Part shown: one piece after another, positions 33,293 to 63,053 of the stretch
Layout: each line of letters opens with the position of its first letter
How positions within the stretch are numbered: the first letter of the stretch is position 1
The notes under the pieces: model-generated
Databases searched by the model: none
What the model was told of the DNA's origin: nothing
What the model saw: the letters and a program-made list of their open reading frames with translations, nothing else
Assembly: GCF_003544935.1 (NCBI RefSeq)
Contig: NZ_CP032098.1
Coordinates: 1,860,001 to 1,924,000, forward strand
Origin: Malaciobacter molluscorum LMG 25693
GTDB taxonomy: Bacteria > Campylobacterota > Campylobacteria > Campylobacterales > Arcobacteraceae
Length of the DNA stretch: 64,000 bases
Direction of reading: 5' to 3'
Made by a program: the position numbers and the translations under genes

Positions 33293-34204
33293 TCAAATAT
33301 CAAGTGTATCAAACCGGGCCAACCACTGAGCATAATCCTCTTCAGTAAAGCCTTCATCTTCATAATGGGGTTCATAAAGAGTGGTACTGCGTACCGGAGC
33401 CAACAAAGCACCCAACTGATAATAACTTTGTGGTATTTTCACCAAGGTAGGCTGATCTGCAGCTTGAATAATGGTGTTATCTCCTCTCTGCCAAACCCGA
33501 ATACCAGAAATTGTCTCCAGTGCAGCTAATCCACCAATGCTGTCCAGATGAGTCTGATGAATAATAGTCAACCAATTCACCCCTTTAATCTGATCTTTCA
33601 GGTGTAATCCATGACCAATATAATCAGGAATATCTAATCCTGGATACTGCTTGGCCAGTTGAACTTCTAAAGATTCATATTCATGATTATCAAAGTGATT
33701 GTGAGTCGTACTAATTGCACCGTAACCATGTAATGGTTGCAATACTTCGATCCAACGCAACGCCACATCTTGAAAAGTCTCAGGAGATGTGCTGAAAAAG
33801 TTCAGTGGAAAATTGACGGTTACCCATCCCAAATCACCGTGTTGTTCTTGCCAAGAAGGTTTGCCAAGCACTAAAAAACGAATATCAGAAGCATCACGGT
33901 AATGTTGTCCGCCGTGATAAACAAATTCCCATCCCTGATCTGACAACTGAGGTAACCAGTCATGTGGTGTCTGATATGGTTTTTTCCGAAGATCTTTCCA
34001 GCTTCTTGCCTGTGGATTAGTGGTAAAATTGAGTTTGCCCTGCATCATCTGCTGGTAGTCGGTTAACATAATCAAGATAGCCTGACGCTTTTCTGGAGTG
34101 CTTCCACCACGAAAAAACAACGTCAAATTCAAGCAAACATTCATCAAGACTATCTGGTCTTTCGAATCCATTAAACGAAGTTCTTGTTCAAGAGTCGAAT
34201 CCAT
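33293..34204 (-). CDS. DUF3396 / type VI immunity-like protein, probably transferred
   Basis: This is a 303-residue protein. KGVNWLTIIHQTHLDSIGGL, YPGLDIPDYI, GDNTIIQAADQPTL and a terminal APVRS segment match the DUF3396 family, whose members are annotated as type VI secretion immunity proteins in Acinetobacter, Vibrio and relatives. It has no signal peptide. A good ribosome-binding site (GGAG, 8 bases) precedes ATG 34204. Base composition is unlike the neighbours: two 60-base rows I counted, 33481-33540 and 33601-33660, have 30 and 24 G+C, against roughly 15 in typical rows. No effector, VgrG, Hcp or PAAR gene is in the window, so it would be an orphan immunity gene. Family assignment is from memory. 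Confidence 0.7.
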   Translation of the reverse strand: MDSTLEQELRLMDSKDQIVLMNVCLNLTLFFRGGSTPEKRQAILIMLTDYQQMMQGKLNFTTNPQARSWKDLRKKPYQTPHDWLPQLSDQGWEFVYHGGQHYRDASDIRFLVLGKPSWQEQHGDLGWVTVNFPLNFFSTSPETFQDVALRWIEVLQPLHGYGAISTTHNHFDNHEYESLEVQLAKQYPGLDIPDYIGHGLHLKDQIKGVNWLTIIHQTHLDSIGGLAALETISGIRVWQRGDNTIIQAADQPTLVKIPQSYYQLGALLAPVRSTTLYEPHYEDEGFTEEDYAQWLARFDTLDI

Positions 34205-36166: not shown

Positions 36167-36757
36167 ATGACATTAAAATATGCTGGATTAAAACCAATGA
36201 TCGACCAACATGGTGTTCATTTTAAAGATGGGAAAGATGATAAATTCTCATATTTAATTTATGCTATTGATATATTAAAAGCTATAGACCATCCATACCA
36301 AAAAAAAATGAAATATTCTCATAATATCATAAATGACAATTATAAACCTCAAGAAATTATTAATATCCTTTTATCTTATCATCCTAATTTAGAAAAAACA
36401 ATGAATCAAGAAATTGTTTCATATAAAACTCACCTTGATAGTGAAGAAGAACATGTAAATAATCTAGTAAACTTAACAGATATAGAAAAAAAAACTTTTA
36501 TTAATAATCTAAAAATAATGAGAGATTATAAAATACAAAGAGCAAAAAATAAAATATTCTACTTTCATTGTATAGAAACAATAGTAGAAATTATTCTTTC
36601 AAATAAAATAAAAGAGATTGATACACCTTTTAATGAACGTTTTTGGCATATATTACAAACAATTCAAGGTGTTTTATCTAAACATAGAATTAGTAGTAAT
36701 TTAAAAATTGAAAATAAAGATGAAATAAAAGCTATGCTATTTATCAACATCTATTAA
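36167..36757 (+). CDS. Uncharacterised protein
   Basis: This is a 196-residue, mainly helical protein with no signal peptide or membrane segment. The first 50 residues (YAGLKPMIDQHGVHFKDGKD and SYLIYAIDILKAIDH) look like a compact domain, and the rest is lysine-rich with SEEEHVNNLVNLTDIEKKTF in the middle. Codon use matches the native genome. A GGA-rich ribosome-binding site precedes the ATG. It is transcribed away from the Nudix gene. I recognise no family. Confidence 0.7.
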   Translation: MTLKYAGLKPMIDQHGVHFKDGKDDKFSYLIYAIDILKAIDHPYQKKMKYSHNIINDNYKPQEIINILLSYHPNLEKTMNQEIVSYKTHLDSEEEHVNNLVNLTDIEKKTFINNLKIMRDYKIQRAKNKIFYFHCIETIVEIILSNKIKEIDTPFNERFWHILQTIQGVLSKHRISSNLKIENKDEIKAMLFINIY

Positions 36758-37036
36758 TATATTTTTTACATTTTGCAGGTTTATTACGATATCACATTAA
36801 TATACATACAACATGTACTATTATCGTCTAAATATCGACAAATAACATACATAAAAAGCATATCATAAACTTAAAATTTATTTAAGAATCATCTAAATTT
36901 CCAATGTTTTCTATAATAATATCTATAAAAACACCTTATTCACGATGTTTGTAGGCATTTTGATATACGATATATTTTGGGTATATTATTTGTTTATTTT
37001 CAGACCATTTTATATATAATGAATGCTTAATAAATA
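36758..37036. other. AT-rich spacer before cassette array
   Basis: This 279-bp stretch has no open reading frame I would support. A TATAAT hexamer at 37015-37020, with TTGTTT 19 bases upstream, could drive the adjacent cassettes. No integrase gene, and no left half of an attC site, is visible. Confidence 0.5.
37015..37020 (+). promoter_or_regulatory. Candidate -10 element driving integron-like cassettes
   Basis: A perfect TATAAT lies 16 bases before the GTTAGGC recombination core at 37037. The possible -35 (TTGTTT, 36990-36995) is weak and the spacing long. It resembles the arrangement in which an external promoter expresses inserted cassettes. Confidence 0.4.
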
Positions 37037-37058
37037 GTTAGGCATCTAGGTAACATTG

Positions 37059-37451
37059 ATGAAAAAAAATAAAAATAGAAATCCGCGATTAGATAATGAA
37101 ATTCTTGGCTATCCTGAAATTTATAGTTGGCCTAAAAAGCCAGTTTTCCCTGAAGAAATTATTGATATACTCATATATCGCGACGAGGGAACAGTAGGCG
37201 TAACAATAAAAGCAAATGGTGGTGATAGAATTGAATTCTTTTTTGACCGCGAGTTAGGACGTCTGTGTTTTGGAAAACATCATACTGATACTTCTGCCGC
37301 ATTCGTGAAAGCGGGGTCACCGTTTGAAAAAGAGCTTTACTCTTACTTTGAGAATGCTAGAAAAAGGCTAGATATCAATACATTTTCAGTTAATGAAATT
37401 CAGGTGTTTACAGAATATTTTAACAAGGCAAAAGTATACTCTGGTGTGTAA
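37059..37451 (+). CDS. Cassette-encoded hypothetical protein
   Basis: This is a 130-residue cytosolic protein starting at ATG 37059; a TTG at 37056 is also in frame. It has no signal or membrane segment. A beta-rich middle (IIDILIYRDEGTVGVTIKAN) precedes an acidic helical C-terminus. It begins 16 bases after the cassette core site and ends 2 bases before the R'' box of attC, as cassette genes do. I recognise no family. Richer G+C and codons such as CGC and GCG differ from chromosomal genes here. Confidence 0.72.
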   Translation: MKKNKNRNPRLDNEILGYPEIYSWPKKPVFPEEIIDILIYRDEGTVGVTIKANGGDRIEFFFDRELGRLCFGKHHTDTSAAFVKAGSPFEKELYSYFENARKRLDINTFSVNEIQVFTEYFNKAKVYSGV

Positions 37452-37453
37452 AT

Positions 37454-37549
37454 GCCTAACAAGTCGCTGCAATTGACAAAACACATGTCACGAATTTTGG
37501 TACCCAAAATGTAACGCCATGTATTTTGCAACTGAGCTCAGCGTTAGGC
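37454..37549 (+). repeat. attC recombination site (96 bp)
   Basis: The outer boxes are R'' GCCTAAC (37454-37460) and R' GTTAGGC (37543-37549), perfectly complementary. Inside, GCTG next to each box, ACAAAACACATG (37477-37488) against the complement of CATGTATTTTG (37519-37529), and the central ATTTTGG / CCAAAAT pair form a long imperfect hairpin with unpaired bases. This is the fold the integrase recognises on single-stranded DNA. Confidence 0.85.
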
Positions 37550-37576
37550 ACATTAAATCAATTAAAAGGATCCACA

Positions 37577-37879
37577 ATGATCATCGCGATAGTGAAAGCA
37601 AAAATCAAATCAGGTATGCATGCAAAATTAAGAGAAACGGCTGATATTCTACAATATGAATTTTCAAAAAATGAGCCTGGCTGTGAACAATATGAATCAT
37701 TCATAGATGGGGACGTATTCATAACTCTAGAGCGTTGGACTGATCAAGCTTGTCTTGATCAGCACTTAGAAGCAGAGCATGTGAAAAAGTATGTTCCTGA
37801 GCTAAGAAAGTGTGTTGAAAATGGAGAGTTTTCAGTTCAATTTATCGAAACTGACAACATCAATTTTATAACGATTTAG
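37577..37879 (+). CDS. Cassette-encoded ABM-family monooxygenase-like protein
   Basis: This is a 100-residue protein of the antibiotic biosynthesis monooxygenase (dimeric ferredoxin-like) fold. MIIAIVKAKIKSGMHAKLRE, EPGCEQYESF, FITLERWTDQACLDQHLEAE and the HVKKYVPEL end are typical of YgiN-like quinol monooxygenases. I chose ATG 37577 because AAAAGGA precedes it; the frame runs back into the attC site. Such genes are frequent in integron cassettes. It ends 10 bases before the next R'' box. Substrate is unknown. Confidence 0.85.
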   Translation: MIIAIVKAKIKSGMHAKLRETADILQYEFSKNEPGCEQYESFIDGDVFITLERWTDQACLDQHLEAEHVKKYVPELRKCVENGEFSVQFIETDNINFITI

Positions 37880-37887
37880 CGATAAAA

Positions 37888-38109
37888 TTGCCTAACAAGA
37901 AAAATTCTGCTGACAAAAAAAAGCCGCATCAATTTGATATTGCATTGGCTCTTGCATCATCTGCAGTTGATGCAACTGCATCAAAATATGATTATAAAGG
38001 GAATAGCAATGCAAAATACAAGCAATTTCTAAAAGATAATATGCAAATGATTACCACATTTGGATTTCCTGGAATTTCAGCATCCGGTATTCGTATCAAG
38101 AAGACCTAA
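37888..38109 (+). CDS. Possible hypothetical protein fused to a truncated attC
   Basis: The open frame of 73 codons starts at TTG 37888, inside the half attC (GCCTAAC), so its true start is unclear or lost. The translation contains PHQFDIALALASSAVDATAS and ITTFGFPGISASGIRI, which looks like real protein, but no family comes to mind. No good ribosome-binding site precedes the TTG. It may be the tail of a gene whose 5' end was removed by the rearrangement that truncated attC. Confidence 0.4.
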   Translation: MPNKKNSADKKKPHQFDIALALASSAVDATASKYDYKGNSNAKYKQFLKDNMQMITTFGFPGISASGIRIKKT

Positions 38110-38126
38110 AAACAGATGATAAAAAC

Positions 38127-38328
38127 ATGACTGATATAAAAAATATTATGTGATATTAGTAGTCAAATTGAATTTACACATGAGACTTATATTAGTGATT
38201 TTATTGATAAGTTCAAAATACCACAAAATCTTGTTTTAGGGTTGCTTGTTGCAGTTGTATTAGCAAAATGCAATAAAGATAAAAATCTCAAAAAGATCTA
38301 TTCTATTCTTGATCCAATGACTAAATAG
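38127..38328 (+). pseudogene. Frameshifted small gene
   Basis: From ATG 38127 the frame (MTDIKNIM) stops after eight codons. Shifting by one base at the A6 run near 38136-38141 gives a continuous product of about 66 residues with SQIEFTHETYISDFIDKF and a hydrophobic LVLGLLVAVVLAKC helix, ending at TAG 38326-38328. Either a one-base insertion killed the gene or the homopolymer was misread. I recognise no family. Confidence 0.45.
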
Positions 38329-38629
38329 TATATCTCATTGAATAGTTTATGGGGAAAAGAGGCAATATGAATATAACAAATCAGAGGAGCCGATGAATTA
38401 TTACCCTGCGGGAAATTTATTAGCTCACTTCAAACGTCCCAAAAGTGTTTAAGAAGTAAAATTTATAGATTCTTTAATACTTTTTGAACAACAAAAATTG
38501 TTTTTAAATCATACGTTTAAAGAGGCATTTTAAATTCAATATACAAAAGTTTGAGAAAACTATTTTCATTTGACAAAAAACTTTTGGTTTTTCTCACACT
38601 TAGTATTCTATCAAACTGACACAAAATTT
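38329..38629. other. 301-bp spacer with small ORF and interleaved inverted repeats
   Basis: An AGAGGAG sequence precedes a 19-codon frame at 38393-38452 (MNYYPAGNLLAHFKRPKSV), too short to call a gene. Two inverted-repeat pairs are interleaved at 38544-38596: CAAAAGTTT with AAACTTTTG, and TGAGAAAA with TTTTCTCA. They lie downstream of the histidine kinase gene on the minus strand. Nothing else is evident. Confidence 0.5.
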
Positions 38630-39817
38630 CTAACACTCCCCTTTATTAACATTTACTAATATATTTTTCAAATCCACAAAAAAAGTAGAACCAGCATTCT
38701 GCTTTGAAGTTAGTTTGATATCTAGTTCATACTCTTTTGCTACTCTTTTTACAATATCAAGCCCTATTCCAAAGCCACCTTCACTATTTTCACCTCTTTT
38801 ATATCTTTTAAAAATCTCTTTTTGTTGAGATTGAGTTATTCCAATACCAAAGTCTTTCACACTAAAAATACCATCAATTAAAGATACTATAATTTTAGAG
38901 TTATTATGACTATATTTTATAGCATTAGAAATTAAATTATTTACTATTTTTTGCATTTTATTTTTATCTGCTTTTATTTTGCAAACTTCTATTTTAGACT
39001 CAATTTCAATATTTTTTGTTAAAGAAATATCATTGAAATACTCTACACTATGACTTACCAAATCTTCCAAATTAAATTCTTCTTCAATACTATCATCCAC
39101 ATTTGCAAAAGTTGAAAAATGAATATCATTATAAAGTTGTGATATTTGTTTTGAACTACTAACAATATACTTCATCATTTTTTCAGGATCTTTTCCTTTT
39201 TTTAGCATAGCAACAGAAGTCATTAAAACAGATACTGGTGTATTTAATTCATGTGCTGTATCTTTTATAAAATTATCCATTGATTCTACTTTTTCTCTTA
39301 CTGGTTTTAAAAGTAACTTTGCTAATAAATAAGCAACAATAGCAACAAATATAGATGTTAAGATTAAAATTATCACCATTACTAATTTTAATTTATTTAT
39401 ATCTTGTACTTGACTGCATGTTTGTATAGCAATATATTCAATAGGTATATTATCTTCATTTAATTTTACAATATAATAATTATATTGGGATGTTTGATAA
39501 TCTGTTTTATGAAAAATGACTTCATGTTTATTCTTCATATTTGAATATAATAACTTTTTTTCTTTATCAAAAAGAGCATACTTTATATCTTTATTTTTCA
39601 ATTCAATTGGTTTAAATGGCTGCTTTTTCATATATGTATTTAAAATATGAGCTTTTATTTCATTTGATGCATTTTTCATCTGCATTGAACATTGTTGTGA
39701 AACAGATTTTAATTCATTTTTATAATATAAAGATAAAAATAATCCAACAAGCAAAACTATTGAACCAACATATATTGATAAAAAGCTTATTAGTGCTTTT
39801 TTTTCATTTTTATTCAA
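38630..39817 (-). CDS. Sensor histidine kinase
   Basis: This is a 395-residue membrane kinase. Transmembrane helices at about 10-30 and 145-170 enclose a periplasmic sensor of about 115 residues. The HisKA phospho-acceptor motif is KDTAHELNTPVSVL (about 188-201). The HATPase_c domain follows, with NLISNAIKYSHNNSK (N box), VKDFGIGI and GEGGFGIGL-like (SEGGFGIGLDIV) G boxes. It overlaps the response regulator gene by 8 bp. It is divergent from the molybdoenzyme operon at 40676, which it probably regulates. Confidence 0.92.
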   Translation of the reverse strand: MNKNEKKALISFLSIYVGSIVLLVGLFLSLYYKNELKSVSQQCSMQMKNASNEIKAHILNTYMKKQPFKPIELKNKDIKYALFDKEKKLLYSNMKNKHEVIFHKTDYQTSQYNYYIVKLNEDNIPIEYIAIQTCSQVQDINKLKLVMVIILILTSIFVAIVAYLLAKLLLKPVREKVESMDNFIKDTAHELNTPVSVLMTSVAMLKKGKDPEKMMKYIVSSSKQISQLYNDIHFSTFANVDDSIEEEFNLEDLVSHSVEYFNDISLTKNIEIESKIEVCKIKADKNKMQKIVNNLISNAIKYSHNNSKIIVSLIDGIFSVKDFGIGITQSQQKEIFKRYKRGENSEGGFGIGLDIVKRVAKEYELDIKLTSKQNAGSTFFVDLKNILVNVNKGEC

Positions 39818-62795: not shown

Positions 62796-62870
62796 TGGCT
62801 CCGAATACTGGATTCGAACCAGTGGCCAAGTGATTAACAGTCACCTACTCTACCGCTGAGCTAATTCGGA
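62796..62870 (-). tRNA. tRNA-Asn (GTT)
   Basis: This is a 75-base cloverleaf including an encoded CCA. The acceptor is TCCGAAT/ATTCGGA, with G as discriminator. The anticodon loop reads CTGTTAA with anticodon GTT, and the T arm contains GGTTCGAATCC. It is third of three tandem copies on the minus strand. Confidence 0.97.
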
Positions 62871-62886
62871 ATAAAATATAATAAAG

Positions 62887-62961
62887 TGGCTCCGAATACT
62901 GGATTCGAACCAGTGGCCAAGTGATTAACAGTCACCTACTCTACCGCTGAGCTAATTCGGA
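62887..62961 (-). tRNA. tRNA-Asn (GTT), second copy
   Basis: This copy is identical in sequence to the gene at 62796-62870. The 16-base spacer between them is AT-rich, and the shared upstream promoter suggests one precursor transcript. Confidence 0.97.
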
Positions 62962-62978
62962 ACTTACATTTAAAGAAA

Positions 62979-63053
62979 TGGCTCCGGATACTGGATTCGA
63001 ACCAGTGGCCAAGTGATTAACAGTCACCTACTCTACCGCTGAGCTAATCCGGA
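62979..63053 (-). tRNA. tRNA-Asn (GTT), promoter-proximal copy with variant acceptor
   Basis: This copy has the same body as the other two, but the acceptor stem is TCCGGAT/ATCCGGA. One A-U pair is replaced by G-C on both strands of the stem, so pairing is kept. CCA is encoded. Confidence 0.97.

Follow-up and report, generated by a model that had tools for sequence, protein, structure and literature searches.

At one point in the chromosome of Malaciobacter molluscorum, two small genes are bounded by boxes of the kind that delimit integron cassettes. Are these genuine cassettes and, if so, what became of the integrase that would have placed them there? A first-pass annotation, made from the letters alone, had described the locus as integron-type cassettes with a complete attC and without an integrase. 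We analysed it in the stretch of 64,000 nucleotides that we call the window, in the rest of the genome, and in related genomes, which are cited by our own labels (G for genomes, L for loci; C1 precedes positions in the M. molluscorum genome). The description as cassettes with a complete attC and without integrase is supported, and the element is larger than a pair of cassettes: it comprises a leader, two cassettes, a probable third that is broken, a second attC and a right edge. We consider it probable that positions 36771-38640 are a decayed native chromosomal integron whose integrase has been lost.

Organization of the locus

The left flanking gene and the histidine kinase gene to the right are convergent, and the element lies between them. 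Its parts, with the two neighbours, are as follows.

36771-38640: probable decayed chromosomal integron, classed as a CALIN and flanked by a conserved gene on either side
36167-36757, + strand: left flanking gene, a neighbour that is conserved at the empty site (tblastn to the G272, G301, G240 and G302 loci)
36771-36959, + strand: left-end (LE) sequence, also present in three relatives at the left edge of loci with cassettes
36960-37037, + strand: attI/Pc-like leader core, kept at three loci of the same genome and in G302, G255 and G272
37038-37543, + strand: cassette 1, its own R'' box complementary to its 5' end
37059-37451, + strand: cassette 1 gene, an open reading frame of 130 aa from ATG
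37454-37549, + strand: attC 1, long class, 96 bp, with R'' GCCTAAC at 37454-37460 and R' GTTAGGC at 37543-37549
37544-37896, + strand: cassette 2, with complementary ends, its attC gone beyond the R'' box
37577-37879, + strand: cassette 2 gene, ABM-type monooxygenase, 100 aa (PF03992, E 5.3e-12)
37890-37896, + strand: orphan R'' box GCCTAAC of cassette 2
37888-38328, + strand: probably the gene of a third cassette, broken and spread over two reading frames, judged from open frames alone
38371-38437, + strand: second attC, of the short class native to the genus, without an R' box (model R1 and alignment)
38437-38640, + strand: right-end (RE) sequence, terminating in an IS256-type terminal inverted repeat at 38617-38640
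38630-39817, - strand: right flanking gene, likewise a conserved neighbour, encoding a sensor histidine kinase (named by eye)

attC sites and cassette boundaries

The four boxes on which the first-pass annotation was built were all found in place, at 37037-37043, 37454-37460, 37543-37549 and 37890-37896; the first and third read GTTAGGC, the second and fourth GCCTAAC. The 96-bp attC at 37454-37549 is complete, with R'' and R' boxes complementary at 7/7 positions. The bottom strand is the recombining strand of attC sites. When folded as DNA, the bottom strand of attC 1 reached -23.6 kcal/mol (z = -5.0), a stability equalled by 0/200 shuffles, and the top strand gave a z of -4.2. On the bottom strand the site folds as an attC does, into the imperfect hairpin that the first-pass annotation had noted. 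The pattern GCCTAAC-N60..90-GTTAGGC occurs a single time in the 2.8-Mb genome and in 3/298 genomes of the phylum, the sites of the other two genomes being unlike attC 1 in sequence. By alignment, attC 1 is 81% identical over 93 bases (E 2e-15) to a site that has cassette-like genes on both sides in a Salinivibrio plasmid, and 84% identical (E 2.5e-19) to a second site of its own genome at C1:1148946-1149038. Sites of this class are also found in the array beside guaB in the same genome and in arrays of G302 and G272.

The inventory of attC sites had to be amended at two points. The last R'' box is present at 37890 as had been reported, and no complete attC follows it: the sequence downstream of 37890-37896 has no attC fold (z -0.17). 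The first-pass annotation had listed attC 1 and omitted a second, differently built attC at 38371-38437. With model R1 this site scored 70.3 bits (E 7.3e-10), being itself 1 of the 12 sequences of that model; our home-made models gave 102.9 and 70.3 bits for the two sites in the window, and their training sets include both. The R-box scan had to be relaxed, since its strict version missed most short attC sites. The locus is a CALIN (at least two attC sites within about 4 kb and no intI) on the strength of two sites, one of which lacks the R' box.

The ends of both cassettes are complementary. The 5' end of cassette 1, GTTAGGCATCTA, pairs with its own 3' R'' box, GTTAGGCATTTA, and the 5' end of cassette 2, GTTAGGCACATT, pairs with GTTAGGCAATTT. 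Such a match between 5' end and R'' box in both cassettes is the pattern expected of circles that were excised and reinserted.

The cassette genes

As had been noted, the base composition of the cassettes is unlike that of the flanks: the G+C content of 37038-37890 is 35.6%, compared with a mean of 27.0% in the window (sd 3.6), and 1.4% of windows are as high. The cassette 1 gene had no relatives in Pfam, NCBIfam, plasmids, genome contigs or viral contigs. The protein of gene 2 shows 86% identity to one from Marinomonas fungiae and, over a partial copy, 93% identity to one from Oceanimonas; more distant copies are carried by a genome assembly of the Campylobacteraceae and by two congeners, in the latter at other loci. 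The Marinomonas similarity to cassette 2 covers 37551-37882, ending at most 8 bases from the R' and R'' boxes. We found no attC around the Marinomonas, Oceanimonas or Campylobacteraceae copies. The first-pass annotation had proposed that the same genes lying in unrelated genomes without attC boundaries would speak against cassettes. Gene 2 does lie in such places (Marinomonas, Oceanimonas, Campylobacterota), and no relatives of gene 1 were found. Because cassette genes derive from ordinary genes, and because the Marinomonas similarity breaks off shortly before both ends of the cassette, the attC-less relatives of gene 2 do not refute its status as a cassette; rather, an ordinary gene was probably the source of cassette 2. 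The gene 3 fragment matched no protein family and no plasmid.

Integrases in the genome, the family and the phylum

Neither an intI gene nor a remnant of one was found in the 64-kb window, in agreement with the earlier remark that no intI frame is present there, and no intI lies beside the array as it would in a complete integron. In the whole genome no intI scored above the curated family cut-off; of its three tyrosine recombinases, two are weak matches to the IntI model. Fragments of IntI are found at the two other loci that carry the leader: at guaB the last 42 IntI residues abut the leader, and at guaA there are two fragments, of 29 and 13 residues. The guaA gene also adjoins two intI genes of another genus.

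The first-pass annotation had implied that such elements are rare outside Gammaproteobacteria. Our results do not bear this out. Genes for intI exceed the curated cut-off in 16/104 genomes of the family and in 34/397 of the phylum genomes sampled, and Campylobacterota are among the integron carriers listed in a review (PMC8618304). An intact integrase of the family matches Vibrio cholerae IntI4 (PDB 2a3v) with E 7e-79, versus E 1.4e-28 for the best Xer, and the extra segment specific to IntI is present in the family's integrases and missing from the Xer-like protein of M. molluscorum. Epsilon-Proteobacteria were already cited in an earlier integron survey (PMC2426708), and CALINs have been tabulated for Sulfurovum and Sulfurimonas (PMC10295459). 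The titles and abstracts retrieved on integrons, or on IntegronFinder, in Arcobacter do not name loci of this kind. A relaxase gene carried by a congener finds its relatives on plasmids of Aliarcobacter, Campylobacter and Helicobacter.

The same locus in related species

In G301, G302 and G240 the site is empty, and the left gene and the kinase gene overlap or lie at most about 30 bp apart. In G272 the interval between the same two genes is occupied by intI, which is read in two frames that overlap, and by an array of five attC sites from which intI diverges. In G255 the same intI and the right edge adjoin the kinase gene; the left gene was not found at that locus. The view of the cassettes as a free-standing pair is not supported, since G272 has an intI and an array between the same genes and the genome of M. 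molluscorum itself holds two more arrays. As in a sedentary chromosomal integron, related species have the element at the same locus: G272 between the same genes and G255 beside the kinase gene. In the window, G272 and G255 alike, the junction of the right edge with the kinase gene falls at one position and is formed by an inverted repeat, which is shortened in G255. This common junction indicates that a single insertion most likely took place before the three genomes split. Taken together, the genus offers a readable series of integron decay, from an empty site and an intI-bearing array to an array without integrase.

The left edge is another matter. LE sequence occupies in the window the position that intI occupies in G272, so that conversion of one form into the other requires more than a simple deletion. 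The integron is flanked by a direct duplication (36740-36766 and 38642-38668) that matches the 3' end of the kinase gene. It measures about 27 bp in the window and about 85 bp in G272 (L079 edges), and it exceeds the usual length of an IS256 target duplication.

The intI genes of the two congeners lie at L079:12008-12998 and L118:6097-7095. Those of G272 and G255 are 96% identical, compared with 83-87% for their flanks, and have one frameshift in common; an already broken intI was probably exchanged recently between the two. We considered a programmed frameshift and rejected it, an insertion of about 20 bp relative to intact homologues being the simpler account. In one genome survey about a third of intI genes were pseudogenes (PMC2426708).

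The leader and the sister arrays

The leader is about 80 bp long, ends in AATAAATA G|TTAGG, with small changes among copies, and contains a -10-like TATAATG; in the window the insertion point falls between 37037 and 37038. Within the M. molluscorum genome it stands at three loci: in the window, at C1:1145335 beside guaB and at C1:1764908 beside guaA (both gua genes identified by eye from reading frames). By eye it resembles the stretch that separates intI from the first cassette in G272. A TATAAT-like -10 is kept across the copies; the copy in the window has a poor -35, and a consensus promoter scan did not choose the TATAATG promoter. We infer that the leader may act as attI and Pc. A partial copy of the leader core, inverted, is found at 36828-36867 within the left-end sequence.

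A search of the whole genome for more attC sites, as had been suggested, yielded two further arrays, at the guaB and guaA loci, and no intI over the cut-off. With models of both attC classes, the genome holds seven attC-like sites, and these occur solely downstream of the three copies of the leader; several small arrays in one chromosome therefore have one leader in common. The guaB array includes a gene for a CatB-type chloramphenicol acetyltransferase, above the NCBIfam cut-off, at L075:11062-11694 (C1:1149061-1149693). Another of its features is a cassette gene that is 84% identical to one in the array of G272 at the window locus, the similarity beginning at the cassette boundary. A cassette gene common to these two arrays is the trace that cassette exchange would leave. 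Since the phylum includes pathogens, a native cassette system is relevant to the ways in which genes might move there, the CatB-type gene of the sister array included.

Transposon-type edges

The LE sequence of the window is 83-86% identical over about 300 bp to that of loci in G302, G255 and G272, and the RE sequence is common to loci in four relatives; both LE (36771-36959) and RE (38437-38640) recur at further loci of relatives. The right inverted repeat of the window corresponds to the one in L083 of G302, where the element is complete. There, a Mutator/IS256-family transposase gene (PF00872, E 2.5e-94) lies inside matching outer ends, with the inverted repeats GAGACTGTTCAGAATTTTGTGTCA and its partner and an 8-bp target duplication, TATCTTTA. 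The hallmarks of an IS256-family transposon are thus all present in L083, and the window has the right inverted repeat alone. Retaining just that repeat, the element in the window is not a mobile unit today. The transposon in G302 (L083:2467-10142) is about 7.7 kb long; judged by eye, it appears to carry genes for a phosphoethanolamine transferase, DgkA, a sulfatase-like protein and a two-component pair as passengers.

At the C33 locus of G272 (L122), an inverted repeat, the leader, one cassette with complementary ends, an attC and the right edge follow one another. A protein of 911 aa is encoded in this single-cassette unit (L122:6162-8897); by eye it looks like an NTPase whose N-terminus is nuclease-like, and its gene may serve in defence. 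One reading of the leader is that of a landing site which lacks an integrase but has a promoter, is dispersed between loci on IS256-type-ended sequences, and is filled with cassettes by an integrase encoded at another place in the cell or supplied by a neighbour; L122 looks like such a unit. We regard this reading as rather unlikely; if true, it would explain why one genome holds several small arrays.

Origin of the array

Under the reading that we prefer, that of a decayed native integron, an ancestor of M. molluscorum and of two or more sister species would have had an integron at this place, with intI, an attI with Pc and a cassette array. IntI would have put circular cassettes in at the attI G|TT, successively, and these would have been transcribed from Pc. 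In M. molluscorum intI would then have disappeared, with damage to cassette 3 and to two attC sites as well, so that the attI/Pc leader, the gene of the 130-aa protein, the ABM monooxygenase gene and one complete attC were left over. Loss of intI is one proposed route to CALINs (PMC8618304), and it is this loss, rather than insertion in trans, that appears to have produced the array of the window. Unless an integrase comes in from outside, the cassettes should no longer be able to move; they may still be expressed. Several observations do not sit easily with decay of a native integron: there is no detectable remnant of intI in the window, the left edge is unlike that of G272, the promoter motif of the leader copy in the window has a poor -35 and was passed over by the consensus scan, and the closest matches outside the genus, for both attC 1 and gene 2, are gammaproteobacterial, as direct import would also have it.

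The first of these points would be expected had the leader already been here, or been borne by LE, and had it received its cassettes from an integrase acting elsewhere in the ancestor, so that the present array never had an intI. LE and leader do occur with cassettes and without an adjacent intI in relatives, at L076, L077, L078 and L122. However, intI lies in the same interval in G272 and beside the same right edge in G255, and the right edge that these loci have in common points to a single ancestral event, which argues against filling in trans. We hold such filling to be distinctly improbable, although the present left edge may have arisen in this way.

The last point raises the question of whether the two cassettes were recently imported as one DNA fragment from marine Gammaproteobacteria, with no tie to a local integron. 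The 81% identity of attC 1 to the Salinivibrio site, the 86-93% identity of the gene 2 protein to Marinomonas and Oceanimonas proteins and the raised G+C content are all consistent with this, but the class of attC 1 is also represented in the guaB, G302 and G272 arrays, and the leader and the second attC are of native types. These findings are better matched by single cassettes entering a local integron, and we judge import of a whole fragment very improbable. Finally, it is scarcely credible that attC 1 is an inverted repeat resembling an attC by chance, for although the bare box pattern turns up by chance in a few genomes, attC 1 is significantly similar to other such sites, its fold has a z of -5.0 and the ends of both cassettes are complementary.

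Relation to known integrons

As a decayed integron, the locus is an ordinary kind of element, already known; less usual are its IS256-type ends and a leader that recurs from locus to locus. Like CALIN elements, it has attC-bounded cassettes, one gene direction and no nearby intI. It differs from them in keeping an attI/Pc-like leader, in having one complete and one truncated attC, and in that relatives carry an intI-bearing version at the same place. With sedentary chromosomal integrons of the Vibrio and Xanthomonas type it shares a fixed locus across species, a uniform short attC class and an intI divergent from the array; here, in contrast, the arrays are very small, there are several loci per genome, and intI is lost or broken across the genus. 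Transposon-borne integrons (Tn402/class 1 and MITE-flanked) are, from general knowledge, likewise bounded by a transposon-type end, whereas the ends in the window are IS256-type, with the right inverted repeat alone, and their mobility is putative.

Other features of the window

The only Rfam families in the window are three tRNAs, encoded by consecutive genes with near-identical scores at 62799-63053 on the - strand. To the left of the integron, 33293-34204 encodes a type VI immunity protein that is TsiV-like (PF11876, E 2.8e-35). The gene has a G+C content of about 40%, compared with 27% for the window, and looks imported.
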